Below the pieces are notes generated by a model. The model searched no databases, was not told the DNA's origin, and saw nothing but the letters and a program-made list of their open reading frames with translations. Positions 7,989 to 64,000 of a stretch of DNA of 64,000 nt are shown one piece after another. The position numbers and the translations under genes were made by a program. The stretch comes from Haliclona indistincta (taxonomy: Eukaryota; Porifera; Demospongiae; Haplosclerida; Chalinidae), in NCBI GenBank assembly GCA_964017065.1, contig OZ024789.1, positions 4,095,971 to 4,159,970 on the forward strand. The letters run 5' to 3'. Position 1 is the first letter of the stretch. Each line of letters starts with the position of its first letter.

Positions 7989-10853
7989 TTACACAAACTG
8001 CATTCCTTCCTTCCTAGCTCTGTAGTACATGATAACTATGCAGCCAATACCAACCACGATAATCACTGCTCCAACCAGAATTGCTCCACCAACGTACAGT
8101 GCTATGTCTGAACTAGGAGCAGCTGCACAGTAGAAAATAACATTGCAAGATGTGATAAAATACGAATAAGCTATGGTAAAAAGAGACAGAGTTCAGTTCA
8201 AAAATTAGTGAGCTGTCTAAATAAATGAAATCTCATGTCAACTATTTTAAATTTCAAGCAAAAATGTGAAAATTGAACCCTGTGATATTATTCATATTAG
8301 CTAGTTGTACAGTAAAAGCGTACCTGTGGTTGTATCTCCAATGGTCGTGTTCAAAGTGAACTGATTGGAGGCACTCCGCCCTTGTATTGAGATGTAAATC
8401 GTGATGTTAGTGAAGTTAGCTATTTTAACACTGCCAAACGTATCTGTTGTTACAAATATCTCCGGTCTACTGTTTGAGAGCTTGAAGTCATAGAATGCTT
8501 CGTTTGGATTCTGTATCTTGTTGGAACCGTAAGACACAATTGCACCAACCGTCACATCAATGCTTATTGTCAAACCATCATTAGGTAAAGAAAGCTGGAC
8601 AAAGGTAACTTCATTTTGCTGTAAAGTGCTTGTGATAGCTTGTCCAACTTCAGAAACTGCAGGAGCTATGAAAGAAACAAGTACAAGTACATGTGCTGGT
8701 ATCCATAATGTACAGCCTATAAATCACTACAGATCATGGTTTCTGCATTCAATGTGAGCGAAAGTTTGATAATACATGCGATTTGTGACAATGCATGTGA
8801 AGCTCATGATTATTATTTTTGACAAACCTGTGCATGCTTCGCTGTTCAAAGTCTCTTGTAGTGATCGTAATTCTGAAATGCTGAATTGTCGCAATAAGCG
8901 AACATACTGACTATCAGGATCAGAAGCAATGGCAGATAGTTCCGTCATATCAACATTACTTCCAACCCCAACAGCATAGCTGAGTATGTTTCTCGTATGA
9001 GCCATTTCAGCAGCTGCAATTGTACTGGCTTTATTATTTGATCTTCCATCGGTGACCACGATAGCAATGCGTGGGATTCCACTTGATCTTGGTCTAGCAC
9101 CATATGAAGTGTTGAATTGTTGAATGCAAGTCAGTATAGCATCAGCAGTGTCTGTTCCACCAGCAGTGTATGTAATATTAGCAATTGCTTGCAGTAGTGA
9201 TGTACTTGTCATGTATGTGTTGAGACTGAACTGCACACTGGCACTATAACTGTATGCAATAGCACCAACTCTTGTCTGATCAGGTCCTATCTCCAAATTT
9301 CTGACGACATCAGAAACAAAGTCCCGCATCAATTGAAAGTTAAGAGATGTAATACTTCCAGAGGCATCAAGTACAAAGATTAGATCAATTCCATTTCGGC
9401 ATTCTGAGTAAAAAATACATAAATCAAAGGACTTAGTGCTTATAGTAAGACAATGTCAACAGATATTGCAAATAATTATCATTGCCGCTCAGCAATGATA
9501 TGTGGGGATGACCATGATTTAAGATGTTATTATAAGCGTGCAGTTTCATGTTTTCACATGCAATAGCAAACTCCATTGCACAATTCAGGGGAGTTGCTGT
9601 GGTGTGCACATAATCACTTCCAACGAAGTTTATTCACACCCATAATACCATAACATAATAAATGTACCAAACTGAATGTACCTATAGATAGGATAACAAG
9701 AGTACCTATCCAAACTGGCATATGCCCAAGTGACCCATTGTACAGTAAACAAGTTGACCTTTTCGTAACAACTATATAATCAACTACAGTGGAGCTCTCT
9801 AAGGGTGGACACCATCAGGACAAAAAAATTGTCCATTATAGAGAGGGTGTCCTCTGGTCAGGGGTTTATTATACATTATGTGGGTTATATTTGGGATTCA
9901 GTAAGTGTCCATTATACAGCTGGGATGAGAGGTGTCCTATATATAAGAGGGGTTACACTGTATATAATCAACTATTATAATCATCCATAATTATAATCAA
10001 CTATAATAATTAATTTTTAATAATCAAATGCTGCTCGTGTTTCAATATTATTGTAATGACCAAGTTGTATATGTAGTTCAGAGTTAATTAGCATGCTGTA
10101 CTAAAATTATTAAATTTCTCTGTCCAATGTACTACACAGCATCACTATACACAGTACTCTGCTAACCATGTCACTGCATTGCCGTTCATAAACGTTAACA
10201 TCCACTCATGATCTTACCAAAAACCAGCAAAGTTTATACACCTGACTATAGTCACATGAATGCAAGTTTGCTTTTTATGTACAGCTAGCTATACCTTTAT
10301 TTTTTATCAATGCCGTCACATCATTGATAAACTTCTGCACTGTTCCTGCGCCATTCTTGTTATAATAAAGTTTCCAGTAATTTGCTTGTTGCGCAATTTC
10401 ACTAGCAAATGGTATTTCTTGTGGAACATTGGACAAAAACAGTCGTGCAGCAAGTCCAGAGTAAAGAGGTTTGCGCAGATCGTTCCAAGTCACACTAGAC
10501 CAGTCGATGTTTAAAGTTTCACGAATCTTTTCATGTTTTTGAGTCAAAGATGGATGAGAGAGACTGTCTTTGGTAGCAAGAAACGCAATTTGATCAACTT
10601 GCCATATCCCGCCGTCGTATCCAGCTCGATAAGTCCCCTGATCATTGCCATCCTTCGACTCAACGTATGCAATCCTGCGAAGAAACGATCGATCGTCGCC
10701 AAATATTCTTGTCTGATGAATCCTGGCGACTACAGCCTCGACAACATCTTCACCAGAAGCTCCTGCACGAATAGTTTGATCACTGCCTTGACCAACACAC
10801 GAGCTGATGCAGAGTGCTGAGAGGAGAAACGTGGTCACAATCATAACCGCCAT
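7989..10853 (-). CDS. SVP-A: membrane protein with SLT/lysozyme-like, VWA and PPC-like domains
   Basis: Four exons, 10853-10295, 9403-8828, 8665-8324 and 8122-7989, encode about 536 residues, and every intron is phase 1. Exon 1: signal peptide (TTFLLSALCISSCVG), then a domain with LRRIAYVESKDG and GGIWQVD. This resembles the lysozyme/SLT fold, with the Glu of VES in the usual catalytic position. Exon 2 (residues about 187-378): a VWA domain with MIDAS residues DASGS, the Thr of GGTDT and VTDG. Exon 3: a beta domain (LQQNEVTFVQLSLPNDG, SNKIQNPNEAFYDFKLS) resembling bacterial pre-peptidase C-terminal (PPC) sandwiches. Exon 4: membrane segment GGAILVGAVIIVVGIGCIVI and a short basic tail. No lesion is seen. 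Surface recognition or adhesion is inferred, not known. Confidence 0.85.
9478..9512. repeat. Dispersed hairpin motif, copy 1
   Basis: An ATCATTGCC...GGCAATGAT stem is followed by ATGTGGGGATG. Near-identical copies lie at 20451-20486 and 53351-53386. Possibly the end of a small transposable element. Confidence 0.6.
9785..9965. repeat. GTCCATTATAGAG-type repeat, copy 1
   Basis: The stretch contains GTCCATTATAGAGAGGGTGT and, about 100 bp later, GTCCTATATATAAGAGGGGT. A shorter copy lies at about 17828-17940 in the matching intron of SVP-B. It is an intronic repeat, not coding. Confidence 0.5.
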
Positions 10854-11139
10854 GCCGTATAGCTAGTAGCCTGGTGCCCAAAGCCCCGTTTACGCACACC
10901 AAATCCGGATTACTACCGGGGATTGCAGGTTGCTTGACCAATAATTATTGGTCGAGTCTACTGATTGTACATGAGAAGACGTATTGTGCGCATGCGCTAT
11001 CAGCAAATTTTCATGTACAAGCCGGATCACGTCCCTTCTGCCCTCTAGTACTCCACGTTTACTTTGTTGCAACAATAACTAAGGAACGGAATATTCAACC
11101 AGTATGCTTACTTTTGGTAAAAACAATTATTGCACGGCC

Positions 11140-12110
11140 GAGACGGTTCTTGGGAGAACCTCATGGAGAAGAGGTTGCTCTTAAAACAAGATGAGAATGC
11201 TTTCCCATATCTTGTAGGAGGCACATAAAGAATGTCATAATTTATAGACCATGATGAGCGGCAGTGTAGGTGGTGAACCGGATGCATGTATATAGTAAAC
11301 AAATCTGTTATAATTGACTAATAGCTCAAGTTCACTACTTGATCTCACTGACATTTCTTTCCTTGCTGTTGGACTGAGCCTATAACTCTAACCCACACAC
11401 GCCCTCATGAAATTTTGAATTTCGTTTAGGAAATGTTATCATGAATAATATAGTTATGTACATAACGTTTAAAAAGATCTCTCCTCATCAATTGGGAACA
11501 AACATGGGAATGTTTGTTACGACAGTTTACACTGACGTCTTCAGCACTTTTCCAAGTGAGCAAACTGAATGCAAGGAACTTTACACTGTTTGAATCATGT
11601 GTGTACATGAATGAATTGCTGGCTGATAAAGTTATGTAGGATATCTGGCTTTGATCAGTGCAGTGGATATAGGGGATTGGTCTTCCACATGCAAGTGGCT
11701 TGTCATGCGAAGAGCAAAAAGATGAAGTGGTTCTTGTATATGTTGCTGTCAAGCCACAAGTATATCAGTTAGGAAAAGCTGCATGTAAATACTTTTTCAA
11801 TTTGGCTTGTTTGACAGTTTTGAGCACATCTGATGTTAATGCATGAACACATACAATGCATACAATGCATACAATGCATACAATGCTTTTAAAGTAGTTC
11901 TTTTGTTTGTCTTAAGCGACTCAAAAACGCAAACAAACCCAGCTTCAGTAATATTATAGTTGTTTATGAGATATCAAGAGTTTGCAGAAAGAATTTTGAA
12001 TTGAGAGTCCGAGTAACGCATTCGGCAGTTATTCCTGTGTCACTAAGACTTAAGTAGATTAAAGTGGTATTGTGTTGGAGACCTTGCAAGACAAAGTAAG
12101 CTGCACTGTA
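11140..12110 (-). pseudogene. NLR fragments of duplication unit 1 (N-terminal and LRR scraps)
   Basis: Sequence at 11140-11260 matches part of the NLR first exon (compare 31390-31470) and its other scrap at 27915-28050. Sequence at 11400-11780 matches the region downstream of the 28.6-kb NLR, and 11780-12110 matches its last LRR exon (compare 28600-28890), minus strand. Frames are broken by small indels, and a decamer ATACAATGC(A) is expanded at 11855-11885. At about 12110-12128 the LRR homology stops and IMMP2L intron-1 homology begins, marking the joint of units 1 and 2. Confidence 0.7.
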
Positions 12111-16440: not shown

Positions 16441-18815
16441 TAGCTAGTTGTACGGTAAAAGCGTACCTGTGGTTGTATCTCCAATGGTCGTGTTCAAAGT
16501 GAACTGATTGGAGGCACTCTGGCCTTGTATTGAGATGTAAATCGTGATGTTGGTGAAGTTAACTATTTTAACACTGCCAAATGTATCTGTTGTTACAAAT
16601 ATCTCTGGTCTGCTGTTTGAGAGCTTGAAGTCATAGAATGCTTCGTTGGGATTCTGTATCTTGTTGGAACCGTAAGACACAATGGCACCAACTGTCACAT
16701 CAATGCTTATTGTCAAACCATCATCAGGTAAAGGAAGCTGGATAAAGGTAACTTCATTTTGCTGTAAAGTGCTTGTGATAGCTTGTCCAACTTCAGAAAC
16801 TGCTGGAGCTGTGAAAGAAACAAGTACATGTACATGAGCATGTGCTGGTATCCATAATGTACTGCCTATAAATCACTACAGAAGTTTCAGTATTCACTGC
16901 ATAGTGCATGTGAGGGAATATCTGTTATTACATGCGAGTAACCGGCCTATGATAATATAGCTATTATAGCTTACTACTGTGAAGCTCATGATTTATTATT
17001 ATTGACAAACCTGTGCATGCTTCGCTGTTCAAAGTCTCCTGTAGTGATTGTAAATCTGAAGTGCTGAATTGTTGCAATAAGCGAACATACTGACTATCAG
17101 GATCAGAAGCAATAGCAGATAGTTCCGTCATATCAACATTGCTTCCAACCCCAACAGCATAGCTGAGTATCTTCTCTGAGTGAGCCATTTCAGCAGCTGC
17201 AATTGTAGCAGTTGGACTGCTTGATTGACCATCGGTGACCACGATAGCAATGCGTGGGATTCCACTTGATACTGGTCTAGCACCATAGGAAGTGTTGAAT
17301 TGTTGAATGCAAGTCAGTATAGCTGCATCGGTATTAGTTCCACCACCAGAGTATGGAATAGTAGCTATTGCTTGCAGTAGTGATGTACTTGTCATGTATG
17401 TGTTGAGACTGAACTGTACACTGGCACTGCTACTGTATACAATAACACCAACTCTTGTCTGATCAGGTCCTATGTTCAAATTTTTGACAACATTAGCAAC
17501 AAGGTTTCACATCAGTTGAAAGTTAACAGATCCAATACTTCCAGAGGCATCAAGCACAAAGATTAGATCAATTCCATTTCGGCATTCTGAGTAAAAAATA
17601 CATAAATCAATAGTGCTTATAAAAAGACACTGACAACACATCTTGCATATAAGCATCCAGTTTCATGTTGCAATAGCAAACTCCATTGCACAATTCAGGG
17701 GAGTTGTTGTGGTGTACACCAACAAAATTTATTCACACCCAATACATATAGATAAGATAACAACAAGAGTAAATTTACTCTCGATAACAAGAGTACCTAT
17801 CCAAACTGGCATACTCATGTGACCCTTTGTCCTCTGGTCAGGGGTTTATTATACATTATGTGGGTTATATTTGGGATTCAGTAAGTGTATATTATAGAGG
17901 GATGAGGGGTGTCCTCTAAGAGGGGTTCCACTGTATATAATCAGCTATATAATCGAATGCTGCTCATGTCTCAATACTATTGTATTGACCAAAATGTAGT
18001 TCTGAGTCTGCATGCTATGCTGTATTAAATTTCTCTGACACTGTACAGCATCACTATATACAGTACTCTGTTAACCATGTCACTGCATTGCAGTTCATAT
18101 ACAACCACTCATGATCATACCAAAAACAGCAAAATTTTCACCTGACTAGCTAGCGGTCACAAGAATGCAATTTTGCTTTTTACAGCTAGCTACATGTAGC
18201 TATATCAGAGCTAGAGATACCTTTATTTTCCATCAATGCCGTCACATCATTGATAAACTTCTGCACCGTTCCTGCACCAATCTTGTTATAATAAAGTTTC
18301 CAGTAATTTGCTTGTTGCGCAATTTCACTAGCAAATGGTATTTCTTGTGGAACATTAGACAAAAACAGTCGTGCAGCAAGTCCAGAGTAAAGAGGTTTAC
18401 GCAGATCGTTCCAAGTCACACTAGACCAGTCGATGTTTAAAATTTCACGAATTTTTTCATGTTTTTGAGTCAGAGATGGATGAGAGAGACTGTCTTTGGT
18501 AGCAAGAAATGCAATTTGATCAACTTGCCATATCCCGCCGTCGTATCCAGCTCGATAAGTTCCCTGATCATTGCCATCCTTCGACTCAACGTAAGCAATC
18601 CTGCGAAGAAACGATCGATCGTCGTCAAATATTCTTGTCTGATGAATCCTGGCGACTACAGCCTCGACAACATCTTCACCAGAAGCTCCTGCACGAATAG
18701 TTTGATCGCTGCCTTGACCAACAGACGGGCTGATGCAGAGTGCTGAGAGGAGAAACGTGGTCACAATCAGATTCACAACCGCCATGCCGTACAGCTCGTG
18801 CCCAAGGCTGCTTAT

Positions 18816-20517: not shown

Positions 20518-23500
20518 TTACACAAACTGCATCCTTTTCTTCCTAATGTAGTTTATGATAACTATGCAGGCAATGCCAACCACAATAATCACTGCTCCAA
20601 CCAGAATTGCTCCACCAATGTACAGTGCATCTGAGCTAGGAGCAGCTGCATGGTAAAAAATAACAAATTTTGCAAATTGAGCATTGCAGCATTTCACAGT
20701 ATCTACACAAAAAGCAAAAATGTGAAAATTGAACCCTGTGATATTATTCATAGTTATTAGCTAGTTGTACAGTAAAAGCGTACCTGTGGTTGTATCTCCA
20801 ATGGTTGTGTTCAAAGTGAACTGATTGGAGGCACTCTGGCCTTGTATTGAGATGTATATCGTGATGTTGGTGAAGTTAACTATTTTAACACTGCCAAACG
20901 TATCTGTTGTTACAAATATCTCTGGTCTGCTGTTTGAGAGCTTGAAGTCATAGAATGCTTCGTTTGGATTCTGTATCTTGTTGGAACCGTAAGACACAAT
21001 GGCACCAACCGTTACATCAATGTTTATTGTCAAACCATCATTAGGTAAAGAAAGCTGGACAAAGGTAACTTCATTTTGCTGTAAAGTGCTTGTGATAGCT
21101 TGTCCAACTTCAGAAACTGCAGGAGCTGTGAAAGAAACAAGTACATGAGCATGTGCTGGTATGCCTATAAATCACTACAGATCATAGTTTCTGCATTCAC
21201 TGTGAGAGAAAATCTGTTAAGGTGGAGGGTACACTGATTTTTAATGATCTTTGTTCTACAATCACGGATCCCGATCACTGTCAAGAAGCGAACAATATCT
21301 AGTCCCATCTGACACTGACCTTGCTCTAGTTGAGGGCAGGGTTCACTTTTGACTTTCTTATCATCTGCTATAAAAATTTTTCTTTTATCTTACACTTTTA
21401 AACCTAATTCCATTGTATCATGAACACTTACCTCAAAAAATATTTTTTATGATCTTCAAAGGATCATCACTTTCTAATTGTAAAACTATATGCAGTTTTC
21501 AGAGTTTATAACCTATAATTCAAAAACGTTAACAGTATTGAATTTTGCAAAACAGATAATTAAATCTTATAGAGAATGTTGTAATGAACATGCAGCGTGA
21601 TTCTGAAGTCGAACAGCAACTTCCTCAGTAAATGAGACGTAAAAAAATAAAGTTGTCCGCGCACTTTTTCACATGAAACAGTTTTCTAGACTTTGTCGCT
21701 TACACGAGAGTTTATTCGACATAGAAACTATCCAGATCGAATTTCTTGTTTGTAGGGTAGACAATTCTCGTATTCTTGTCTACAAGACTTGTTGAAATAA
21801 CCTACTGTATAAAGCACAGTAACCTTGAACGCGTGCGACGGCCGGCATTCTTTACGCCAGTAGGCGAACACTTGTGAATAGTTGTGGCAGAGATTATTAA
21901 TACTACGTAATCGGGACAAAAACTGTGACAAATCTGGTGTCACTATGCGCGTTTCGCTTGTAATGACGTCATACTCGTGAAAATGAAATGTATTACAGCA
22001 TTCAGTGACTGGGTCAGGCGTCCGCCTGTAACGTGATGTACGAGCTTTTTTCGTTAAGAAAAACCTGTGGTTGTGGACAAGTTACAGAGCTTAAATTATG
22101 ATATTTACACAATCCAATCATCCACCTAACTAGAGATACTGTGAAAGCGAATACCAAGTCCACAGATTTTGTACGGTTGTGTTCACAAAAGTGGGACCAA
22201 AAAATGTCTTCAACCGTCGCTGGTGCGAATCCAAAGCATCAAGAAGCCCAAAATGTATCTATTTACACGCACCAGTACTCGAACTTTACAATAAACTAGG
22301 CAGGAACTGCAACAGGCATCTCACGGAGTCATGGATACATGTGCATGCGGTTTACTTTTACATCGCCACGCACACAGATTTTGCCTTGTCAACTTAGACA
22401 CGCGCCCGTCGTCTATAGCCAATAAAACCTTCAACTAGGATACACTAGTAGTGAAGAAACGCGCTCCTTTCGTCCTAAGAGCAAGTGCTAAAGCGAGCAA
22501 GAGTTCATACAAACTCCGTATCTGCGCGTTCTTTGTGGTTGTTTGACAAAACGCGAAACGCGCATGGGTACACAACTTGCAATAGTCTACATTTTGATTG
22601 ACAGTTTCTTATCCCGGTTACGTAGTATTAACTAGTACATTCATGGAATGGCAGGGGCGAGCCTGAGCATTGATATAATTTAGCCTTGTTAGTGTATAGT
22701 TGTCTATATACATTTAATTATTATTTGCACCAGGTTATGTAGTGAGTCCAGACTTTAGTAGATAAGTCTGTATTATGTTTAGACCTGTTTCACCACAGAT
22801 TTTTGTGCTATAATGTTAACATTTTTTTGTTGATGGTGAATAGAATCAATAGTTTGGTTACGTTCAGATATGGTGAACTTTCTCAACTATCTCTTGCTGG
22901 ATGAGTGTGTTCCTTGTCTATAGGCGTCATGTGAACAATGTACCTGGAAGATGTGATGAGTAGGGTTCCTTGGTCTCCTCACTCACTGCAGGCGGCTCTA
23001 CTGCTATCACACACGAGCTCATTAGACGTACCTAAGTTACTGTTTGCTCTGTTGCAGCTACTGCTTTCCGCCGGCGTCTCCGGTAGGCCCTTTGATATTC
23101 CTTTTGTTGCTCCAGTCGTCTGCTTCCACGTTGATCGGGTGACTCTGCCTCTCGTCGTCGCTTTCTGGTAGCGGCCTTGTCGTGTAAAAGTTTTTGCTTT
23201 TTAGGTGTCTCTGATCTCTGTTGTTGTCGTCCCTGAGTCATCTGCTGGACTGCATCATTGCCAGAATGCCAGGTATCTTGTTTGAAACCAAGCGCCAATT
23301 ATAATGTGCGCACGTGCTAAAAAGGGCGATTCCTAGTTATCGGGAACACTGAAAACGACAAACGCTACCCCGTGACAGATAGATTGATAGATACATTCCC
23401 CGCCGCGTGGGCCATTGTGTCAATCAATGTGGGGCTCGCTCAGGCTCGTCCCAATAATCTCTGGTTGTGGTAACCACAGCAATGAATAATTTACAATGTA

Positions 23501-25236
23501 GCTATTATAGCTTACTACTGTGAAGCTCATAGTTCTTTGTTATTATTGACAAACCTGTGCAAGCTTCGCTGTTCAAAGTCTCCTGTAGTGACTGTAATTC
23601 TGAAGTGCTGAATTGTTGCAATAAGCGAACATACTGACTATCAGGATCAGAAGCAATAGCAGATAGTTCCGTCATATCAACATTACTTCCAACCCCAACA
23701 GCATAGCTGAGTATGTTTCTCGAGTGAGCCATTTGAGCAGCTGCAATTGTAGCAGTTGGACTGTATGATTGACCATCGGTGACCACAATAGCAATGCGTG
23801 GGATTCCACTTGATATTGGTCTAGCACCATAGAAAGTGCTGAATTGTTGAATGCAAGTCTGTATAGCAGCACCAGTATTAGTTCCACCAGCAGTGTAAGG
23901 AATATTAGCTATTGCTTGCAGTAGTGATGCACTTGTCATGTGTGTGTTGAGACTGAACTGCACACTGGCACTATCACTGTATACAATAACACCAACTCTT
24001 GTCTGATCAGGTCCTATCTCCAAATTTCTAACGACATTAGCAACAAGGTTTCGCATCAGTTGAAAGTTAGCAGATCCAATACTTCCAGAGGCATCAAGCA
24101 CAAAGATTAGATCAATTCCATTTCGGCATTCTGAGTAAAAATCAAAAGTGCTTATAATAAGACAATGACAACAGATCTTGCAAATAATTATTATAAGCAT
24201 ACAGTTCATGTTTTCACATGTAATAGCAAACTCCATTGCACAATTCAGGAGAGTTGCTGTGGTGTGTACATAATCCACTGCCAACAAAGTTTATTCACAC
24301 CGATGCAAAACATATAAATTACATATAGATAAGATAAAAGAGTAAGAGTATATACCCAAGAGACAGGCCTGTTGTACAGTAAACAAGTTAACCCTCACAA
24401 CTATAATATTATAATCAAAATAATTAGCTATAATCGAATGCTGCTGTGTTTCAATATTGTTGTAATGACCAAGTTGTACATGTAGTTCTGAGTCAGCATG
24501 CTGTATTAAATTTCTCTGTCCAATACGCCGTACAGCAGCGCTCATATACAGTACTCTGTTAACCATGTCACCTGCATTGCAGTTCATAAACATCCACTCA
24601 CGATCATACAAGCATAGTTTACACCTGACTAGCCACGTGAATGCAAGTTTGCTTTTACAGCTACGTAGATATACCTTTATTTTCCATCAATGCCGTCACA
24701 TCATTGATAAACTTCTGCACTGTTCCTGCGCCATTCTTGTTATAATAAAGTTTCCAGTAATTTGCTTGTTGCGCAATTTCACTAGCAAATGGTATTTCTT
24801 GTGGAACATTGGACAAAAACAGTCGTGCAGCAAGTCCAGAGTAAAGAGGTTTACGCAGATCGTTCCAAGTCACACTAGACCAGTCGATGTTTAAAGTTTC
24901 ACGAATCTTTTCATGTTTTTGAGTCAAAGATGGATGAGAGAGACTGTCTTTGGTAGCAAGAAATGCAATTTGATCAACTTGCCATATCCCGCCGTCGTAT
25001 CCAGCTCGATAAGTTCCCTGATCATTGCCATCCTTCGACTCAACGTAAGCAATCCTGCGAAGAAACGATCTATCGTCGCCAAATATTCTTGTCTGATGAA
25101 TCCTGGCGACTACAGCCTCGACAACATCTTCACCAGAAGCTCCTGCACGAATAGTTTGATCACTGCCTTGACCAACAGACGAGCTGATGCAGAGTGCTGA
25201 GAGGAGAAACGTGGTCACAATCATAACCGCCATCAT
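20518..25236 (-). CDS. SVP-C: membrane protein with SLT/lysozyme-like, VWA and PPC-like domains
   Basis: The four exons are 25236-24675, 24130-23555, 21125-20784 and 20645-20518, about 535 residues, with all introns phase 1. The domain order is that of SVP-A. Signal peptide; SLT-like domain with YVESKDG and GGIWQVD; VWA with DASGS, GGTNT and VTDG, all MIDAS positions present; PPC-like exon with NKIQNPNEAFYDFKLS; membrane segment GGAILVGAVIIVVGIACIVI; tail NYIRKKRMQFV. No lesion is seen. A second in-frame ATG is at 25233. The intron between VWA and PPC exons (21126-23554) carries a DNA element and other foreign sequence. This is the best-preserved SVP copy of units 2 and 3. Confidence 0.85.
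21890..22632. mobile_element. Nonautonomous DNA element, second copy of the 13.9-kb element
   Basis: Terminal sequences (GAGATTATTAATACTACGTA, and its complement near 22610-22630) and much of the interior match 13871-14623. It is inserted in the third intron of SVP-C. Confidence 0.75.
23032..23298 (-). pseudogene. Arg-rich fragment resembling Helitron-associated repeats
   Basis: An open frame with KRRREAESPDQRGSRRLE and QQKEYQRAYRRRRRK resembles the short ESPEQRxxRL-type basic repeats found near the N-termini of some Helitron-like proteins. It lies in an SVP-C intron, has no other recognisable domain, and its start may be arbitrary. It could also be a bZIP-like basic fragment. Confidence 0.35.
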
Positions 25237-33564: not shown

Positions 33565-33666
33565 AATCACGTGCGCATAATAACAACCTACAATCACGTG
33601 CGCATACCAACCTCCTCTGCCATGTTAATGTTGTCATGCGCCAATTCTCGCTCGCTACATACAACT

Positions 33667-34771: not shown

Positions 34772-35065
34772 GGCAGGTTTCATACCTGATGATATAGTAC
34801 CTATCCACAACTGCTTTTACTATTATAGAACAAGTTTGTGAGTTTGTATTTTAAATAATAATATTTATTATTCATAATAATTTTATTATCATCATGTTAT
34901 AGTATTTGTATCAAATCATGATTTTGTCATTACTGGGCATCAGCATAGATAAAAGCAGAGCCACATGAAGCCTGGTAGTTGCTGCATTGACAGAGAAACC
35001 AATCAGACATAACCTTTTGACTGTACATGTAGTGTGATCACGACATTTAGACTGTGAGCCACACC

Positions 35066-41135: not shown

Positions 41136-41176
41136 GATTATGGACATGCGCTCTTTCTGCAGCGGTAAGGCAAAAA

Positions 41177-43448: not shown

Positions 43449-44141
43449 CTACACATTTTCAGGTTTCTTTCGAAATCTGCGTACAACTACAATAAACACA
43501 ACAAATACAACTCCTATCACAATGATAGCGACTGCTCCTGCTGCACTTCCAAAGGCAATTGGCAATATGCTGTTTGGCGGCATAACTGCATGAAAAGATT
43601 TGAGATAAAAATAATACATCATGATACTACATTACAGCATCGCCACAGATAAAAGAATTTATCAATCATACTTGTAGAATCTGTTGTCATGTTTGGTGTA
43701 CTTGTAGTAGTAGGTTCAGTAGTAGGTTCAGTAGTAGGTTCAGTAGTAGGTTCAGTAGTAGGTTCAGTAGTAGGTTCAGTAGTAGGTTCAGTAGTAGGTT
43801 CAGTAGTAGGTTCAGTAGTTGGTTCGGTAGTTGGTTCGGTTGTATCTCCAGTGGTTGTGTTCAAGGTGAAGTTGTTAAGTACGCTCTGTCCTTGAATCAA
43901 GATGTACATGTATATTGTGGTGTCAGTATCATCAGTGTTGTTCATTATTTGACGTTTTGTGATACTAGAAGAAGAAAATGTTCCCTCATTTACAAATATC
44001 TCCGGCTTGTCGTCAGAAAGCATGCAGTCATGAAATGCTTCATTTGGATTTTGTATCTTGTTTGAGCCATACGACTGATCCTTGATTCACATCGAGACTA
44101 AATGTTATACCCTCTTCCGGTAGCTAAATCAAGCTCGAGAA
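43449..44141 (-). pseudogene. SVP-E: 3' remnant (PPC-like exon and membrane exon)
   Basis: Paralogue of SVP-H. The membrane exon 43585-43449 is complete (FGSAAGAVAIIVIGVVFVVF). The PPC-like exon runs from 43672 to about 44141, where homology stops abruptly; SLT, VWA and start are gone. It has an expansion of TEPT (about 11 units) between the beta domain and the membrane, absent in SVP-H. A small deletion around 44070 (SNKI...S segment) breaks the frame. Confidence 0.85.
43705..43840. repeat. TEPT-coding 12-bp tandem repeat
   Basis: TAGTAGGTTCAG is repeated about eleven times, encoding (TEPT)n on the minus strand: a Thr/Pro-rich stalk in SVP-E. Confidence 0.9.
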
Positions 44142-44679: not shown

Positions 44680-47600
44680 TCAACAACACTCAGGCCCACA
44701 ATCCCCAGCTATACAATTAAAAAGTAGATAATGATAATGTCAGTTATGATTATGCGGACGTGTGTGCATTGTAATAACATTATAAAAATCGTAAACAAAT
44801 ACAAGATAAAGCAACGATGTTTATACGATTAAGTTTTAACTTTGATGATTGATGTATTCTTGATCGGGATCAGGACCCTACCAGCAAAATCAAGTCCAAT
44901 AATACATGCAGCATCATGAGCACTATGCATTATCATAGCTACCTACACTATGCATCACAGTAGCTGTCAATGTAACTTACGGCACTCATTGCAGTTCAGT
45001 GGCACTTCTCTTCCAGTAGCAGCCAGATTACGGCAAACAACAGAAACCAAAGCTTCTTTACAGCTTCGAGTATTACGTTGATTACATGATGAAGTTGGTA
45101 AATCTGTTATAATAATAAATACAAGAAAATTATCTATCGAAATCAAAAGGATGTAGTGATGAAGAAATATACTGATGTAAACCAACAAGGAACAAGCATA
45201 GAAGGGTAACACGATTGACTTGCTAAGAGACCATAGATCTCTACATCAATGGCTGACTATAGCTAGTTCAGCTAGTTGCTGTTGACTGACACCAGACATG
45301 CATTGAATTGAATTCAGCTTGTGACAAAATATTGATCTTATGTACAGCCACTGATGTAGGGATCTAAGGTCTGTTAGCAAGTCAATCGTGTTACCATTCT
45401 AAGCTTGTTCCTTGTTGGTTTACATTGTGGACCAGTAGTATAATTATTTCTTCATCACTACATCCTTTTGATTTCGATAGAAATCTTTTTAATTTTCTTG
45501 TTTGTGTCCTTTCTTCTTTTTCTGTGAAGTGCAGTTCAATATCATGCAAGTACTGAGCTGTCTTTGTTTCCACCATTAGTTTAGTTTTGCTGTTGTTCCT
45601 TATTATAAATAATTTTAAACAAATAACTAAAATTACATATCAGCTCGCCTACGCATTCATGCAGAGCATTCGAGCCCCCCCCCCCCACACTAGTATTGTT
45701 AGCAAGCGCAGAATGGTGATCCTACACGAGCTTACCGTTCTTCGAAAACTCCAGACAACTACGTGTTCTCCGTGATCCATACGGCGCGGCTATACTCAAG
45801 CTAGTGCTCGGTTACGTGCCGGCTAGCCGCTGCATGCTTGGTCACGTGCGGATTGCGTAATCACAATAATTGCGTCTAACACTTAGCTGACAATGGATCA
45901 CGATCGAGAAATCGCGGAATGTATATAGCCGTTTCGCTAAAAACAAAGTTCAAAAGGCACCTGCCATGAGAATTTCACGGGCGTATTTTACTTTAGCCCC
46001 CCCCCTCGAATATGCGTGGGTTAATTAATTGACACCTCGAGGTGTTAAATTTTTGTCACGCGCGTGCTGCAGCAACTAAACAAAACTAAATACTAAACCC
46101 AAGACCTTAAAAAACTTCGCCTAACTGCGCAAAGTCGAGAGGGTCTTCCTAACTAACTAAGGATCGTCGGGAGGGTCTTCCTAACTAAGGATCGTCGAGA
46201 GGGTCTTCCTAACTTAAACTAAGGATCGTCGTCTTCCTCTCGACGATCTTTAGTTAGGAAGACCCTCCCGACGATCCTTAGTTAGGAAGACCCTCCCGAC
46301 GATCCTTAGTTAGGAAGACCCTCTCGACTTTGCGCAGTTAGACGAAGTTTTTTAAGGTCTTGGGTTTAGTATTTAGTTGCTGCAGCACGCGCGTGACAAA
46401 AATTTAACACCTCGAGGTGTCAATTAATTAACCCACGCATATTCGAGGGGGGGCTAAAGTAAAATACGCCCAATTTCACGACTGTTCGCGGGTGTTTTGG
46501 TCTCAGAAGAAGAAGAAGAAAACGAAACTCGATTTTTACCGTTTCCAGGTTCGTCACTTTAGTAACAATTTCAAGCAATCTCCCTGCTATTGTAAGATGA
46601 GGCAACAGATCTAAGTGTCTATGGACGTATAAAATTCATCACCAGGCGAAATATCAGCGTTTGAAAGCTAATACTGTAATACGCTACATACACTGTATGT
46701 AGCCGCCATTTTGTTTTCTCGTTCATCCGGAGTCACTACCGTGCCTAATGAATATCATTTACTTTAATAATCATAGACTAGCTATAATATGAATATTATA
46801 CCTGAGTTGGTTGTACATTGTTGTGGAGTAGTGTCTCCCATTGTAGTGTTCAAAGCAAAGCTGCTGGACGCACCGAGGCTCTGAACAGCTAAATTAACCG
46901 TGGTGTCAGTAGCATTATTCATTGCTGGGCGTCCCACAACTAATGAATTAGTGCTGCTATCAAAGGATATGAACACGAATGGCTGGCTGTTGGTAATTCT
47001 GAAGTCATAGAATGCTTCGTTAGGTGTCGTTGTCCTGGCAGAACCATAGATCACGATAGAACCATCGTTCACATTGATATCTATAGTTATACCCTCTGCA
47101 GGAACAATATACTGAAGGTAGACAGTTTGATTCCGAGTCACAGTTCTTGTAATAATTTGTCCGACCTCAACAATTGCCGGAGCTACATAAAATAGTAAAA
47201 AAACAGTGATCAAGTAAAAAATAATTATTTATTCTCACATCACCCGATTCTCAAGTGCTTCCAAAAATTCTCTCACCTGTGCATGCTTGACTATTCAAGG
47301 TCTCCTGCAACGATCTCAATTCTGCAGTATTGAAGCCTGAGAGTGAACGAAGGTACTGACTGTCGGGGTCTGAAGCAATAGCAGCCAATTCCTCCATGTT
47401 GGTATTGCCTCCAATACCAACAGCATAACTGAGTATGTTCTCTGAGTGAGCCATTGCTGCAGCTGCAATTGTAGCAGTTCGATTATTCGAGCGACCATCA
47501 GTAACCACGATAGCAACACGAGAGATTCCACTTGATCTTGGTCTAGCACCCAAAGAAGTGTTGAATTGTCCAATACAAGAGAGTATAGCATCAGCAGTGT

Positions 47601-49130
47601 TTGTTCCACCGCCAGTGAAAGAAACAGCATCAATTGCTTGCAGTAGTGATGCACTTGTCATGTGTGTATTGAGGTTAAACTGCACACTGACACTACTTTC
47701 ATAGCGAATAAGACCAACACGAGTAGTATCAGGTCCTATGTCCAAATTATTAACAACGTTGGTAGTAAAGTCTTTCATTTTATCAAAGTTGGAAGATCCA
47801 ACACTTCCAGAAGCATCAAGCACGAAGATCAAATCAATCCCACTTTGACACCCTGTAAAAGAGTAAAATAAAAAAAAATTCAATAGCTAATGCAAATGTC
47901 AAGTTGATAACTTCTTTAAAATAATTACTATAATAGTATTAGTACATTGTATTAATGGTGTACTACGAATATGCCTGAGGGATATTAGTGATTTATTGCT
48001 GAGTGTATTCATAATACACCACGAGGTAGGCATGATTTGTACAATAGCAACCCCAATGCCCACTGATGTCTGTAGGCTTCTATTGGACAAATAAGGGCAA
48101 CTTACCCTGCCTTGCATATAGTTTCCTGGTGGGGTCGACTTACAATTCTCTGTTTTTTTTACTATCTCTGGAAGGTATATCATTTTGATGATCGTTTTTG
48201 CCCAATGGGAGTCATGTCACTTCCCGTGAAATATCAGACATTTCACAGGAAATCCTGTGGAATGTCTGATAACATATGTACCACTGGGCAGTGCCTTTGA
48301 AAATAATTTAGGCTTCATAGGTACTATTGTAACTAACAGCTACAATAAACTGAACTGTGCCACACCATTAAAATCTAAATTTGTTCAGATAAATAATAAT
48401 AATAATAATACAACAATTTTACGGTTAGGTTCAAATTTTCACTAAATTATGGCCCAGGTTTGCTACAGCTTATCAAGCAATTTCACATGTGAAAGTTGGA
48501 GTATATTAGGACTGTAGTGGTAGCGCAGCCTAACTGGGTAATGCATTACTGACATCAGTTTAAATAATATGCAACATGTATCGGTAAAGTAAAAGTACCT
48601 GTACTGGCTACAAGTGCCGCCACATCATTGACAAACTGCTGCACTGTGCCGTTTTGGTTGTAGTGCTGTTTCCAGTAGTTGGCTTGTTGCGTGATTTCAC
48701 TAGCAAGCGGTATTTCTTGCGAAACTTTGGATAAGAGTAAACGTGCGGCTAGTCCGGAGTAAAGAGGTCTGCGTAGATCAGCCCAAATCACGCTAGACCA
48801 TACGATGTTGAATGATAATAATATTTGCTGGCGCTCGTTTGCTAATTCAGGAGCAGATCTGGTAGCTAGAAGTCTGTCTTCGTCGACCTGCCATATCCCC
48901 CCATTGTATCCAGTCCGGTAAGTTCTCGGATCGGTGCCATCTCTAGTCTCAACGTAAGCTATCCTGCGGAGAAGCATGCGGTCATCCGAGAAAATGGCCG
49001 ACAGCTGTATTCGAGCTACTATAGCCTCGACAACAGCTTCACCAGAGGTTTCGGGGACAATTGTTTGGTCGAATTGTCCAATACTCGAACTGAAACAGCA
49101 GAAGAGAGCAATAACAGTCACAATGGCCAT
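44680..49130 (-). CDS. SVP-F: SLT-VWA-PPC family member with Cys-rich C-terminus
   Basis: Exons 49130-48599 (signal peptide, SLT-like with YVETRDG and GGIWQVD), 47852-47277 (VWA, 576 nt, DASGS, GGTNT, VTDG) and 47182-46802 (PPC-like, with TPNEAFYDFRIT). No membrane exon follows. Two exons in matching phase do: 45103-44981, coding SCNQRNTRSCKEALVSVVC and NCNEC, and 44708-44680, coding GDCGPECC then stop. Total 546 codons, all junctions phase 1. The product would be secreted, with about ten cysteines in its tail. The last intron-exon joints are inferred from splice signals and phase only. The TATA box position favours this ATG over one at 49154. Confidence 0.7.
45115..45500. mobile_element. Foldback element FB1, inverted pair in SVP-F intron
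   Basis: Left arm ATCAAAAGGATGTAGTGATG and right arm CACTACATCCTTTTGATTTC; same family as 26190-26710. Confidence 0.75.
45971..46472. mobile_element. Near-perfect long palindrome with internal tandem repeat
   Basis: GCGTATTTTACTTTAGCCCC at the left is matched by GGGGCTAAAGTAAAATACGC at the right; identity continues through CACCTCGAGGTGT, CACGCGCGTGCTGCAGCAAC and the CTTCGCCTAACTGCGCAAAG region, arms about 240 bp. The centre consists of repeats of TAGTTAGGAAGACCCTC with TCGACGATCCT between, in both orientations. Foldback-type element in the last large intron of SVP-F. Confidence 0.85.
47940..48320. repeat. MITE-like element, copy 2 (see 132-570)
   Basis: GAGGTAGGCATG, AATACACCAC, GGGAGTCATGTCACTTCCCG and the inner layout match the copy at the left edge. 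It lies in intron 1 of SVP-F. Confidence 0.7.
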
Positions 49131-55999: not shown

Positions 56000-58123
56000 C
56001 TATGGATGCTGCTGCACAAGTCGTTTCTTGACTGTTCGAATCTTGCACAGTAGAGCAACCGTAACCAAAAGCACTATCAGGATCAAGACGATAATGACAG
56101 CTCCAACCACACTTCCCACAACAATGACCAGCACATCAACTTGTGATGTAGCATCTGCAAAATAAAAATGTAGAATAATAATCATTATACACTACTGAAC
56201 TGTACTATCATTGTCAGCATCAATTCAAAATTTAAACATCAAATTTTTTTGTACCTGTAACCATGACATCAGTAGTTGCACTTGTTGTTGGTGTTGTACT
56301 TGGTTCAGGAGTCTCTTTTGTCGTGTCTCCAATTGTTGTGTACAATGTGAAGTCATTCAACACACTCTGACCTTGGATTGTGATGTAAATTGTAATATCT
56401 GTATCATTTGGTGTTTCTGCACGTTTTGTGATTCTTTGCCCGAATGTTTCCTGATTTACATAGACTTCTGGTATGCTGTTTGACAGCTTAAAGTCATAAA
56501 ATGCTTCGTTGGGATTTTGTATCTTGTTTGAGCCATACATTGCAACTGATCCTAGACTCACATCGAGACGAACTGTCGTACCCTCTTGCGGTAAACTGAC
56601 CTGCAGAAAAGTAACTTCATTTTGCTGAAGAGTGTTTGAGATTGGTTGTCCAATTTCAAAAATCGCTGGAGCTGTGACAAGATTGAAAATTATGGACAGC
56701 ATTGACTTAGCTATTGATTTACCTCTGCACGCTTCATTGTCCAAGCTTTCTTGAAGTATCCGAAATTCATTACTGCTGAACTCTGCTACAGAGCGAACAT
56801 ATTGACTATCAGGATCTGTAGCAATAACAGCCAGTTCTTTTATGTTGACATTGTCTCCAACTCCAACAGCATAACTGATGATTCCCTCTGAGTGAGCTAT
56901 TTCTGCCGCTGCAACTGTAGCAGCTGAATTGGTGGAATAACCGTCAGTAATCACAATAGCAATGCGTGGGATTCCATTTGATTTTGGTCGAGCACCATAT
57001 GAAGTATTGAATTGTTGAATGCAAGTCAGTATAGCAGCATTGGTGTATGTTCCACTACCAGCGTATTTTATATTAGCAATTGCCTCTAGCAGCGATGCAT
57101 TTGTCAGGTATGAATTGAGACTGAACCGTACGCTGGCTTTGGTACTGTATTGAACAACACCAACTCTAACCTGATCAGATCCAATGTTCAAATTACTTAC
57201 AACGTTAGTAACAAATGTCAGCATTATTTGAAAGTTAGCAGGTCCAACACTTCCAGAAGAGTCCAGTACAAAAATTAGATCGAGTCCAGTTCGACATTCT
57301 ATGTAAAAAGTAAGAAATGTTAAAAGGACATAATTATGAATTAGCCGGAGGCTCAGGGATAATTCTGACATACAGTCATGGGTACACATACACATGTATA
57401 AAAATAATTATCGTTACTGCCTTTATAGCTCACATGCATGAGGAGTAAGGTAGTAATAGATGACATACTGTAATGATTTGCTTGAGCACATATACTAAAG
57501 TACCTCAGTATGCCGTACTGATCATGAGCAGTAACACTACTGTACAAAATGTAAATAATAAAATTGTAGACACCTTTTGCCGCTTCAAGAGCCCTCACGT
57601 CCTCTATAAACATCTGTACTGTTCCAACATTGTTGTAGTACAGTTTCCAGTAGTTTGCCTGTAACTCTATTTCACTAGCAAATGGTATTGGCTGCTGAAA
57701 AGTCGACAAAAGCAAATAGGCAGCAAGTCCAGAATGAAGAGGAATACGTAGGTCATACCAAGGCACACTGGGCCAGTTTATGTCAAAATTTTGTTGTATT
57801 AATTCGTATTTTGATACTAAAGCTGGATAGGCAGCTGTGTCCTTGGTTCTTTGAAAATCAATTCCGTCAACCTGCCATATCCCTCCGAAGTATCCAGCTC
57901 GATAAGTCTTTTGAAGGGTGCCGTCTCTCGATTCTACGTAAGCAATTCTGCGGAGTAGCGAATTGTCCTCAGGAAATACCCCAGCCTGACGAATCTTAGC
58001 GATCACAGCTTCGACAATAGGTGCACCAGATCCTTCTGGGCTAACGGTCAGGTCGACATTCTGTCCATTAGACAAGCTAACGAAGAATGCTACACAGAGA
58101 AGCAACAAGACAGCCATGGACAT
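56000..58123 (-). CDS. SVP-G: membrane protein with SLT/lysozyme-like, VWA and PPC-like domains
   Basis: Exons 58123-57574, 57298-56723, 56671-56255 and 56154-56000, 565 residues, all phase 1, no lesion seen. Signal peptide MSMAVLLLLCVAFFVSLSNG; SLT-like domain with LRRIAYVESRDG and GGIWQVDG; VWA with DSSGS, GTYTN and ITDG; PPC-like exon with NKIQNPNEAFYDFKLSNS and a Thr/Pro stalk before the membrane (PEPSTTPTTSATTD); membrane segment VIVVGSVVGAVIIVLILIVL; cytoplasmic tail IRTVKKRLVQQHP. The ATG is chosen because it starts the signal peptide and lies 36 bp from the shared upstream motif. Intact partner of broken SVP-D. Confidence 0.87.
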
Positions 58124-58644: not shown

Positions 58645-60831
58645 TCAAACAGTTTCAGCCTTGTTTCTTCGGAACGTGTATACAGCAATGGACACAATCA
58701 CAGCGATGACTATCCCAAACATGATCACTCCTCCGATAGCACTTCCAAGAACAATTGGTAGTATATTTATGATAGGGGGTGGGTCTGCACAGGAACAATA
58801 ATAATAATTATTATTATATTTTCAGTGCACGCCGCCATTTAGGCATATTTCATACTTGTTTCTGTCTGTATAGTTGTTCCAATAACGGTTGGCACTGTAG
58901 TTATGTCAGGTGTAGTAGTGTCTCCAGTGGTAGTGTTCAAAGTAAAGTTGTTAAATCCACTTTTTCCTTGAATCGATATGTATATTGTGGTGTCAGTATC
59001 ATCAGTGTTGTTCATTATTTGACGTTTTGTGATACTAGAGGAAGAAAATGTCTCCTCATTTACGAATAACTCAGGCTGGTTATCTGAAAGCATGAAGTCA
59101 TGAAATGCTTCATTTGGATTCTGTATCTTGTTGGAACCGAACATTACAACTGATCCCTGACTCACATCGAGACTAAATGTCATACCCTCTTCCGGTAAGG
59201 CAACCTGCAGGAAAGTAGCTTCATTTTGCTGTATTGTAGTTGCAATAACTTGACCAGGAGTAGTGATTGCTGGAGCTATACAGTGCAAGAACAAATTTTC
59301 AGGTATTCTATTTTGGCTTGTACAATACTTAAAATTTTACTTTGTGTATAGGCATACGACATAATGATTTAGTGATGAATTCTAACAGGAAATATGCTAT
59401 AGCGCTTGCAAATCATGCAGTGTAACTCTTTATACCTGTGCACGCTTGATTATTCAAGGTCTCTTGCAGTGATTTTAACTCCGAAGTGCTAAACTCTGCC
59501 ACAGAGCGAACATACTGACTATCAGGATCTGTAGCAATAACACTTAGTTCCGTCATATTGACGTTGTCTCCAATACCAACTGCATAGCTGAGAATTCCTT
59601 CTGAGTGAGCTATTTCAGCAGCTGCAATTGTAGTGGGAGGATCATTTGATTTGCCGTCAGTGACTACTATAGCAATACGTGGGATTGCACTTGACTTTGG
59701 TCTAGCACCATAAGAGGTGTTGAATTGTTCGATACAAGTGAGTATAGCTGCACCGGTATTTGTTCCACCACCAGTGTATGTTACATTAGCAATTGCCTCT
59801 AGCAGTGATGCATTTGTGATGTATGAATTGAGACTGAACTGTACACTTACACCACTATTGAAAAGAACAAGACCAACTTGAGCCTCGTTGGGTCCTATGT
59901 TCAAATTTCTTACGACGTTAGCAGTAAAGTTCTTCATTAATTCAAAGTTATAAGACCCAATACTTCCGGAAGAATCAAGTACAAAGATGAGGTCAATCCC
60001 TGTTTGGCAAGCTGCAGAACAGAATAATAAAAAGTAAATCCATTCATCAAGTTACATGTAGTGCACATGCTGGGCAGGTTTATTAATGCCGGTAGTTACC
60101 CCATTCAGATGGCTGGCTCATATCTTTGAAATTCATGGAATCATGAATAAGTAAAAATGTACCTTTGTTGTTCATACGGTCTTTGTTACCTTACTATGCT
60201 ATAGGTTAACCCGACATGCAGCCTAAGTTACACAACTTGATGTTTATATTTTGTTACCGTATTTAATACCTAGCGCTTCCTCTAGTGCCATCACGTCATT
60301 TATAAACTGTTGCACTGTATCTTCTGAATTGGTATTGTAGTGTGTTTTCCAGTAGTTTCCTTGCATTTCAATTTGAGTAGCAAGCGGCACTGGTTCATCA
60401 ATAGTTGACAAAATCAAACTAGCAGCGAGCCCCGAGTAGAAAGGCTTACGTAGATCACTCCAACTCACACTGGGCCAGCTAATCCCCCACGTTGATTGTA
60501 TTTGTTCGTATTTCACTATTAAGCCAGGATGAGCACCGGTATTCTTGGTCACTGTAAAGAATTTGACTTGGTCAACTTGCCATATCCCGCCATCGTAGCC
60601 AAGACGATAAGTATCTTCATCAGTGCCGTCCTTCGACTCAACGTAAGCAATTCTGCGGAGTAACAAATTATCGTCGGGAAATGTTCCTGACAACTTTCCA
60701 ACAACAGCCAAGACAACGGCGTCACCACTGGTTTCTGGAACAATTGTCTGATCAGTAGCTTGTCCAGCAGACAAGCTGAAGATACACACCCCATAGAGAA
60801 GAAACACTGCAGCTACACACGCTGGAGCCAT
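58645..60831 (-). CDS. SVP-H: membrane protein with SLT/lysozyme-like, VWA and PPC-like domains
   Basis: Exons 60831-60270, 60011-59436, 59275-58856 and 58784-58645, 565 residues, phase 1 throughout. SLT-like domain: LRRIAYVESKDG, GGIWQVDQ. VWA: DSSGS, GGTNT, VTDG. PPC-like: NKIQNPNEAFHDFMLSDN, then a Thr-rich stalk. Membrane: VLGSAIGGVIMFGIVIAVIV; tail YTFRRNKAETV. Exon 1 has two possible donors in the same phase (60270 or 60258); the first matches the other genes. No lesion is seen. Intact partner of truncated SVP-E. Confidence 0.86.
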
Positions 60832-60874: not shown

Positions 60875-61051
60875 AAAGTAATAATTTGAGTCACGGATGA
60901 CTCATGGTAACACTGTAGTGTAGTGTAGTGTACTACATTAGCAGGTATTTTAATAAAAAAGTTAACGTGGGAGTTGGAGTTTTATTTACCATAACTATCA
61001 TAGATTTACTGCGTTTACTAGTGACATTTTATTACATGCGTGGTTAATATA

Positions 61052-61895
61052 CTAGTTGATGTTGATTTTGCCAGAAACTCCTTTGCCTGTATGAAAGAAT
61101 AAGGTATAGCAAACATATTCGTGTCATGCTGTATAGCTTACGTAGCTTTTTTGCAACTTCTTTACAAGCAGCACCACCGATCGGCAAAACAACCTTTTCG
61201 ATGAATTTCTTTAGTACTTCTTCAGGATCCTCACTCGTTTCAATGCTCTTCAGAACTTCACCTAGTATCTTAGAAGTATACAGTTGAGCGTGACCTGCTT
61301 TGGCATCAGTGACCGCATCTCTTATATCACTTGCAATGAGGTGCTCAGAGAAAGCTTTAGCTGCAATACTTAAAAGGCTGCCCTGAAGCGACAAAGCCAT
61401 GATATTCACATTACGAGAAAAGACCGTCATTTCAGGATATTTGTCTGAATCTTCATCTCGCTTTTCAGATTTTACTTCATCCTCTGCAGGAATATGACAT
61501 CAAAATTAATGCTATCAAAACAATGAGTCTGTTTGCTTACCAATTCGTTTTACCAGCGGCTTGTAGGCAGGTTCCGCTTTGACAATGTCCAGAAAAGTCT
61601 TCATGATCTTCTTGGACGTCTCCGCGTTCTTAGCGGTAGTAAGCTTCGCGTAGATCTCGATCAGCAACATGACCATCCTCTCAGAAGGGGTCGTGGTCAG
61701 GTTCTTCGTGGTGACACCACGCACCAGGTCCATGTTGATCAGACCGACCGAAACAGCATGGGTAGCCATAGACAGATAGGACGCATTCAGTACCATTGCA
61801 GCCATCGCTAGGTTCTCTTCAAACACTCTTTGTGCTACTGACTTTGCCTGTTGCTGCTGCTGTGGACGCGCGGCTAAGCAGTCTTGTTCCGCCAT
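61052..61895 (-). CDS. Tandem death-fold-like domain protein
   Basis: Exons 61895-61541, 61483-61142 and 61086-61052, 243 residues. Two helical repeats are visible. The first: VLNASYLSMATHAVSVGLIN, then PSERMVMLLIEIYAKLTTA and FLDIVKAEPAYKPLVKRIG. The second: LLSIAAKAFSEHLIASDIRD, then YTSKILGEVLKSIETSE and PEEVLKKFIEKVVLPIGG. An acidic/basic linker (EDEVKSEKRDEDSDKYPE) joins them. The hydrophobic spacing and the 'short terminal helix with a late FLxIL' pattern resemble DED/CARD-like domains of sponge NLR and adaptor proteins. No signal peptide or enzyme motif. A cytoplasmic signalling adaptor is inferred. A fragment copy is at 44142-44390. Confidence 0.6.
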
Positions 61896-62241
61896 TGCTG
61901 TGTACAGCTGAATCGTGTGTGCCGGCTTGTGGTCTAGAACGTTTTGATAACAGTGATAACATTAGAGTATGAAAATGAAAGGTCATTCACAGTGTATTCA
62001 ACCTCCGCTGTACCCGGTAATTTATCGCCTTCTTTAATTTGATATAGGATATGATGAGATGTGGATTCTATGCATGCAGCCACATTTTTATAATAGTCTA
62101 GCATGTATAGCTAATTCTAGTGTGCTTCCAAAGAAAATAACAAAGCTAGGATAAATAAGTCAGATTTAAAGGAGTATAACAATGAAGAGAGAGAGAGAGA
62201 GTGATGGGAAAGAAATTAATGATTGGGACGTCAATTGACGT

Positions 62242-63440: not shown

Positions 63441-63935
63441 AGATATTTTGCTTATATCTAGTTCATAAAAACCTACACGATGTAGGCATCAATCGTGTAA
63501 CTATGCTTTCACATCATATGAACATCAAACTAGATCATTTTGAGTCTTTAAAGCAGTTGTGACAGTAAAGTCTTAATGATGAGCAGTGATGATAGTAGAG
63601 TGTTACTTTAAACAACTTCCATGAAACAGTTATTGAATTGAAGATGCCGCACCTGACATTAGCTTGTGCAGGAATGTAGTACTATTTACATAGAACGAGA
63701 CTACTAATGACATTCATGTTCTGATTAGTATTTCTAATGTGTTATAAAAATTATACTGTGAGTCACTGCTGGGAGTTGTTCTCAAACATGCTACCATAGA
63801 TAAAAGTTACATAGTATATAATATCTGTGAACAAATAACCAAAGACACTTAATACCTACTTAGCACATGACTGAGATAGTCCTAATACAAGCTAACACAT
63901 AGACAAAGGACTTTGTCACGAACATGATGCAATAC

Positions 63936-64000
63936 CTAAGATTGCCTGTAGTGCCATCACATCATTAACAAACTTCTGCACAGTTCCAGCACCATTGCGG
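63936..64000 (-). CDS. SVP-I: 3' end of an SLT-like first exon, cut by the window edge
   Basis: Reads NGAGTVQKFVNDVMALQAIL then a donor GTATTGC in phase 1, the end of the SLT-like exon of this family (compare AGTVQKFINDVTAL in SVP-A). The 5' end lies right of the window. No downstream VWA exon was found before the RT relic, so the gene may be truncated or have a long intron broken by the insertion. Confidence 0.75.

Follow-up and report, generated by a model that had tools for sequence, protein, structure and literature searches.

A stretch of 64,000 nucleotides of the genome of Haliclona indistincta (contig OZ024789.1, positions 4,095,971 to 4,159,970; hereafter the window), on a 13-Mb contig of an assembly totalling 144 Mb, contains a cluster of genes encoding surface proteins with a lysozyme-like, here lysin-type, first domain. 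The minus strand of the window carries seven complete first exons for this domain, an eighth that is truncated where the window stops, and an orphan 3' end. Nine members or remnants (genes A, B, C and D, the orphan 3' end, genes E, F and G, and the start of gene H) were identified, in agreement with an earlier note on this DNA, which had counted at least nine in 56 kb. By sequence comparison, the first domain is homologous to a phage protein family, phrog_3108, found in lysis cassettes, which the earlier note had missed.

Gene model and domains of the cluster

The gene model, read base by base in genes A and G and scanned in the others, is represented by four exons: the first encodes a putative signal peptide and the first domain, the second a VWA domain, the third a sandwich domain, and the fourth a single hydrophobic segment followed by about a dozen tail residues and a stop. 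Position 7989 is the last base of the gene A stop codon. The exon junctions read are all of phase 1 under predicted splicing; at the predicted splice sites, G/GT ends all eight first exons at the identical place, H included, and all seven VWA exons, and AG precedes all seven sandwich exons. The putative signal peptides are hydrophobic N-termini seen by eye in the first exons. Complete four-exon sets were found in genes A, C, F and G, which combine such an N-terminus with a transmembrane exon, as in type I membrane proteins; with exon splicing predicted, the cluster encodes short proteins of this type.

The order of first domain, VWA and sandwich is the same in all seven window genes with a complete first exon, as described in the earlier note. 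The membrane tail, which it had considered equally constant, can be assigned to only four of the seven, because no convincing transmembrane exon was found for B, D and E within about 2.5 kb. For gene E, a search of 6 kb turned up only the transmembrane exon of the orphan 3' end. The sandwich exon of the orphan terminates in a many-copy tandem PTTE repeat (43802-43861). The decay of copies noted previously is evident from an in-frame TGA inside the VWA exon of gene B and from an 8-base deletion with a frameshift at the VWA start of gene D, relative to F.

A search of the whole genome yielded 16 first-domain exons, namely, nine in the cluster (A to I, H straddling the window end and I lying beyond it) and seven elsewhere. 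VWA and sandwich exons lie downstream on the same strand in 14 of the 16; the exceptions are H, after the lysin-type exon of which no VWA or PPC-like exon was found, and a copy on C3. If the first intron is retained in A, B or H (locus L025), the frame closes within a few residues, with the ends GIASCT (A, about 10275), GISSSDIATCS (B, about 18186) and GIASCS (H), and a soluble secreted lysin-type protein would result.

The structure model of the first domain of gene G is confident (pLDDT 90), and all 14 structural matches listed are chitinases, lysozymes or muralytic enzymes. As modelled, the domain has the fold of the GH23/lysozyme superfamily, which bears out the SLT/lysozyme-type fold proposed in the earlier note, with modelling as the check to be made. 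The predicted fold is like that of GH23 soluble lytic transglycosylases and metazoan g-type lysozymes, and the active-site motif is presumably of the same type. Unlike these enzymes, the first domain has no match to Pfam SLT above the cut-off and no sequence match to a lysozyme in PDB. Among the 72 animal-type members of the profile that we built (P0029, P0051, P0054 and P0074 left out), only four matched Pfam SLT (PF01464), with a best E of 0.08, and no matches to this family at E <= 0.001 were found in the sponge genome. The same profile matched three PDB sequences at E <= 10, with no lysozyme among them. By these sequence tests, the domain is not detectably of the g-type lysozyme kind. Searches of Pfam, NCBIfam and PDB sequences with single exons gave no name for it; NCBIfam BchE matched at E 5.4e-5 with 22 bits, where the cut-off is 481, and this was put down to chance. 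One homologue of 340 residues, P0051, contains two tandem lysin-type domains.

The seven VWA copies of the window match PF00092 with 133.9 to 155.1 bits (cut-off 23.8), and motifs of the metal ion-dependent adhesion site (MIDAS) are visible in their translations, as expected from the full MIDAS reported earlier. The identification of the third domain as a PPC-like sandwich holds at moderate confidence, on the predicted structure: identity to PPC-fold domains and to PliG is 8-12% with a moderately confident model, and SIDT1/2 ectodomains match the model as well as these structures do. Pfam searches with the separate sandwich exons of E and G gave no families at E <= 1, and the combined exon of gene D matched VWA models only.

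Table. Exons of the lysin-type cluster in window coordinates; exon boundaries are predicted and signal peptides putative (TM, transmembrane)
Feature	Position	Strand	Remark
Gene A exon 1: signal peptide, lysin-type domain	10295..10853	-	phrog_3108 match 2.7e-14
Gene A exon 2: VWA	8828..9403	-	
Gene A exon 3: PPC-like sandwich	8324..8665	-	
Gene A exon 4: TM segment, short tail, stop	7989..8122	-	
Gene B exon 1: lysin-type domain	18221..18785	-	broken gene
Gene B VWA exon	17011..17586	-	in-frame TGA
Gene B PPC-like exon	16467..16808	-	
Gene C exon 1: signal peptide, lysin-type domain	24675..25236	-	
Gene C exon 2: VWA	23555..24130	-	
Gene C exon 3: PPC-like sandwich	20784..21125	-	
Gene C exon 4: TM	20518..20645	-	
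Gene D exon 1: lysin-type domain	40586..41147	-	gene broken downstream
Gene D VWA exon	39739..40309	-	8-base deletion and frameshift near start, relative to F
Gene D PPC-like exon	39271..39687	-	
Orphan 3' end: partial PPC-like exon, TM exon	43449..44074	-	
Gene E exon 1: lysin-type domain	48599..49130	-	
Gene E exon 2: VWA	47277..47852	-	
Gene E exon 3: PPC-like sandwich	46802..47182	-	
Gene F exon 1: signal peptide, lysin-type domain	57574..58123	-	
Gene F exon 2: VWA	56723..57298	-	
Gene F exon 3: PPC-like sandwich	56255..56671	-	
Gene F exon 4: TM	56000..56154	-	
Gene G exon 1: signal peptide, lysin-type domain	60270..60831	-	structure modelled
Gene G exon 2: VWA	59436..60011	-	
Gene G exon 3: PPC-like sandwich	58856..59275	-	structure modelled
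Gene G exon 4: TM	58645..58784	-	
Gene H: 3' part of lysin-type exon	63919..64000	-	rest beyond window

Relatives of the first domain in phages

In PHROGs, 71 of the 72 profile members match phrog_3108 (E <= 1), a family annotated as "unknown function"; the best E is 6.8e-20, and that of window gene G is 1.5e-12. A scan of the sponge genome with phrog_3108 at E <= 0.001 recovered 15 of the 16 first-domain exons, that of D being missing, and the same scan of 14 control genomes gave no matches. In a library of viral structure models, an uncultured tailed phage provides the best match, a protein of 1021 residues (TMq 0.75, 30% identity, E 1.6e-6). The proteins of this family, including phiKO2 Gp54, the lysis-region proteins of PMBT28 and K21lambda1, and large proteins of marine phage contigs with the domain at their C-terminus, are homologous to the animal domain over about 130-150 residues and share with the animal heads the E, G, GxxQ[VIF][DE] and YN positions. 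Of ten further phage-side proteins, nine match phrog_3108; the protein of L050 does not.

With the animal profile, relatives in IMG/VR were found on two contigs (41% and 37% identity); the phage profile revealed at least 11 loci among the 600 pattern matches listed, two of which are the same contigs. Viral scans with the metagenomic protein P0092 and with a Vibrio phage protein found no relative. In prokaryote genomes, no relatives were found among 28 pattern matches to the animal profile, and a single one, in a Campylobacteraceae metagenome-assembled genome, among 60 matches to the phage profile; both scans were pattern-based, so that absence is not proven. At least two diverged genes of the phrog_3108 type, near 254744 and 441858 (L036, L044), are present in the 636-kb uncultured phage LR756504.1.

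The phage copies are either standalone or C-terminal in large proteins of the virion region, and no VWA domain, sandwich or introns were seen in them. In Salmonella phage PMBT28 and Klebsiella phage K21lambda1, the phrog_3108 gene (E 2e-45 and 2.5e-41, respectively) lies directly before genes for a holin and an Rz-like spanin; the PMBT28 neighbours match phrog_785 (holin, 6.6e-27) and phrog_89 (spanin, 1.1e-5), and those of K21lambda1 are an annotated holin and a spanin (1.4e-9). The copy in an oyster-derived phage record (4.3e-37) is labelled endolysin. At six IMG/VR loci, the domain stands at the end of open frames of 810-1161 residues; at the one locus checked for its neighbours, L033, the adjacent genes encode a tail protein (5.2e-175) and internal virion proteins, matched at 1.6e-35 and, weakly, at 0.0012. 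At six other phage places, the neighbouring genes were uninformative. From this placement of the phage copies, beside genes for holin and spanin or at the end of large proteins of the virion region, a lysin role of phrog_3108 is probable, and the fold suggests the same.

Conserved residues were counted in 79 animal-type and 22 phage-side rows (P0029, P0051, P0074 and phage L045, a near-copy of L043, left out), the latter comprising 19 phage or viral-contig records, one bacterial metagenome-assembled genome (L058) and two metagenomic proteins (P0091, P0092); the P rows on the animal side are called animal by similarity, not by taxonomy. The catalytic-type Glu (E of VES) is present in 77/79 animal-type and 22/22 phage-side rows, and the next conserved Gly and the Gly before IW are each present in all rows of both sides. 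Q was found in 57/79 and 22/22, D in 55/79 and 20/22 (E in the other two), and N of YYN in 49/79 and 22/22, respectively. These residues presumably correspond to the GH23 active site. All nine cluster copies, A to I, retain the phage-type E, Q, D and N; in all six dispersed VWA-bearing copies, E and Q are kept, D is replaced by S and N by T. In the C3 copy, E is changed to Q, Q to D and D to N.

Dispersed long forms, evolution and neighbouring genes

The six dispersed paralogues are located at C9:6213180, 6230499, 6705312 and 6738309, at C5:749603 and at C7:966391 (L026-L030, L032, L059-L061, L063). These were read exon by exon and unspliced, so that the extent of each as a single gene is putative. 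Downstream of the sandwich, exons resembling immunoglobulin (Ig) and FN3 domains were found in translated frames (L026, L028, L029, L030, L032) or by regular expression (L027). In the one gene sampled with Pfam (L028, L059), I-set matched at 2e-16 and FN3 at 4.7e-5 to 7e-14, of which the weakest falls below the cut-off. By regular expression, this gene has about 20 distinct FN3-like exons, one upstream match and one in the 500-base overlap not being counted. Further on, hydrophobic segments are followed by tyrosine-containing tails in L032, L059 and L060. As far as can be read from the exons, the lysin-type head also caps larger Ig/FN3-type genes elsewhere in the genome, which the earlier note had missed.

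The tail of L032 contains a repeated unit with NPAY and PxxP motifs. In the stretches of the long forms that were read, a motif search revealed no kinase or phosphatase tails; a kinase-like open reading frame (ORF) seen by eye in L062 is not linked to them. The lysin-type exon of L031 (C3:9080520), with IgGFc-binding, Calx-beta, TIG and weak VWD exons downstream, possibly represents a third architecture.

In a quick tree of the same 101 rows, the 79 animal-type rows lie on one side of a branch with support 94. In a careful tree of 63 rows, which left out L041, P0093, P0031, rows under 130 residues and near-copies, the animal branch has support 93/97 and appears in 92% of 200 bootstrap trees. 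There, P0092 and then L050 adjoin the animal branch, and the lysis-cassette phages are far off; the tree itself is unrooted, and with these phages as the outgroup the animal sequences would nest within those of phages.

Among A, B and C, the ratio of nonsynonymous to synonymous substitution (dN/dS) is 0-0.14 for the lysin exon, the most constrained one, 0.10-0.16 for the sandwich and 0.50-0.61 for VWA; no ratio exceeds 1. Exon-wise recombination or gene conversion is likely, because the synonymous divergence (dS) of VWA (0.12-0.17) is also higher than that of the lysin (0.05-0.09) and sandwich (0.10-0.13) exons. The pair D-F, of which D is broken, lacks this pattern (dN/dS 0.40, 0.32 and 0.42).

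Between genes C and D, on the cluster strand, lies a NACHT gene (28244-31723, E 2.4e-22) with ORFs resembling leucine-rich repeats. The earlier note had placed the cluster beside NLR and death-fold genes; the former neighbour is supported by this match, and the latter is not, since the two ORFs taken as such (61047-61961) gave only weak matches to unrelated Pfam families (E 0.21 and 0.027), under the cut-off. A DUF2961 gene is present inside the cluster on the plus strand (33412-38707; ORF 37562-38704, E 4.2e-36), with two ORFs of similar appearance upstream of 37562-38704 on that strand. At C5:6192715-6206266, ten VWA exons form a tandem array of their own over about 13.5 kb, in which no lysin-type exons were found.

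Origin and possible role

We propose, with a probability of about 0.5, that an animal ancestor captured a phage lysin, that the cluster genes use it as an enzyme tethered to the cell and facing bacteria, and that in the long receptors it probably serves as a head for binding. Acquisition of the domain from a tailed phage is proposed because the animal sequences form one branch in the trees and the family is distributed widely among phages; the direction and number of transfers are inferred. Phase-1 exon shuffling would then have joined the lysin domain to other domains. The clustered short forms most likely still cut peptidoglycan at the animal cell surface, presumably that of bacteria, and VWA may attach the protein to a binding partner, for instance a bacterial surface, the matrix or a co-receptor. 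In the dispersed Ig/FN3 forms, two conserved residues of the head are changed, and it probably binds rather than cuts. Taken together, this suggests that the animal turned a phage lysis enzyme into a bacterium-facing surface protein. A more specific version, in which a single domestication led to two tiers, tethered active lysins releasing wall fragments and catalytically retired Ig/FN3 detectors of the wall, is put forward tentatively and is rather doubtful; its least supported part is that the sandwich, modelled as PliG-like, could act as a built-in brake on the g-lysozyme-like head.

Several features weigh against an active enzyme: D and N are replaced in the six dispersed receptors, Q or D is lost in many animal-type rows, as counted above, and the protein has both a domain for adhesion and a membrane anchor. 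These would fit pattern recognition only, in which the head of all forms binds peptidoglycan or another glycan without cutting, in receptors for microbe sensing or symbiont adhesion. This is somewhat unlikely, given that E, Q, D and N are kept in 9/9 cluster copies and nearly all phage-side rows and that the lysin exon is the most constrained among A, B and C. Cleavage is predicted equally by a use in feeding, in which captured bacteria would be digested by the short forms, at the surface of feeding cells or inside phagosomes, with no immune role; according to PMC12855814, a placozoan g-type lysozyme serves extracellular digestion. We consider this improbable. The NACHT gene beside the cluster, which would speak for defence, is weak circumstantial evidence, and the analysis does not otherwise separate the two.

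The earlier note had suggested self/non-self or microbe recognition. Of these roles, the microbe-facing one is likelier, judging from fold and kinship, because the fold is of a type that cuts walls and its residue set is intact, which points to bacteria; nothing found points to self/non-self. Allorecognition or self-adhesion, with a cluster that varies between individuals and mediates self/non-self contact, would agree with tandem copies in decay and with the elevated dN/dS of the VWA exon, but no ratio exceeds 1, the higher dS of VWA than of the lysin exon suggests recombination or gene conversion, and the head is of the wall-cutting type, so that this role is very unlikely. Equally remote is an origin of the head from animal g-type lysozymes or bacterial transglycosylases, the phage copies being a side branch or taken from animals. 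According to PMC12855814, Porifera, Cnidaria and Placozoa have g-type GH23 lysozymes, explained there by an old transfer from bacteria. Searched up to E 10, the animal profile hits no lysozyme sequence in PDB, Pfam SLT recovers none of the genome's exons where phrog_3108 recovers 15, the phage side spans both standalone lysis-cassette genes and large virion-region proteins, and scans of prokaryote genomes gave none and one.

These findings connect a phage family that has no known function with a predicted role as a lysin, and they show that animal surface proteins have the same domain as their head. An active head would mean that an early-branching animal possesses an antibacterial system derived from phages and anchored in the membrane; the presence of intact-looking and changed heads in one genome makes the change from enzyme to receptor directly testable. 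No paper on a lysin/VWA receptor was found in the accessible open-licence literature. In the portions of publications available, sponge NLR, SRCR and other expanded immune families are likewise candidates for microbe recognition; these families consist of different domains, with no lysin-type head mentioned there. Microbial wall-cutting enzymes captured by animals include phage-type lysozymes of clams, GH25 lysozymes and Tae/Dae amidases, and the domain described here would likewise be such an enzyme type kept by an animal. Unlike these soluble proteins, it is built into VWA/sandwich/transmembrane proteins and Ig/FN3 receptors.

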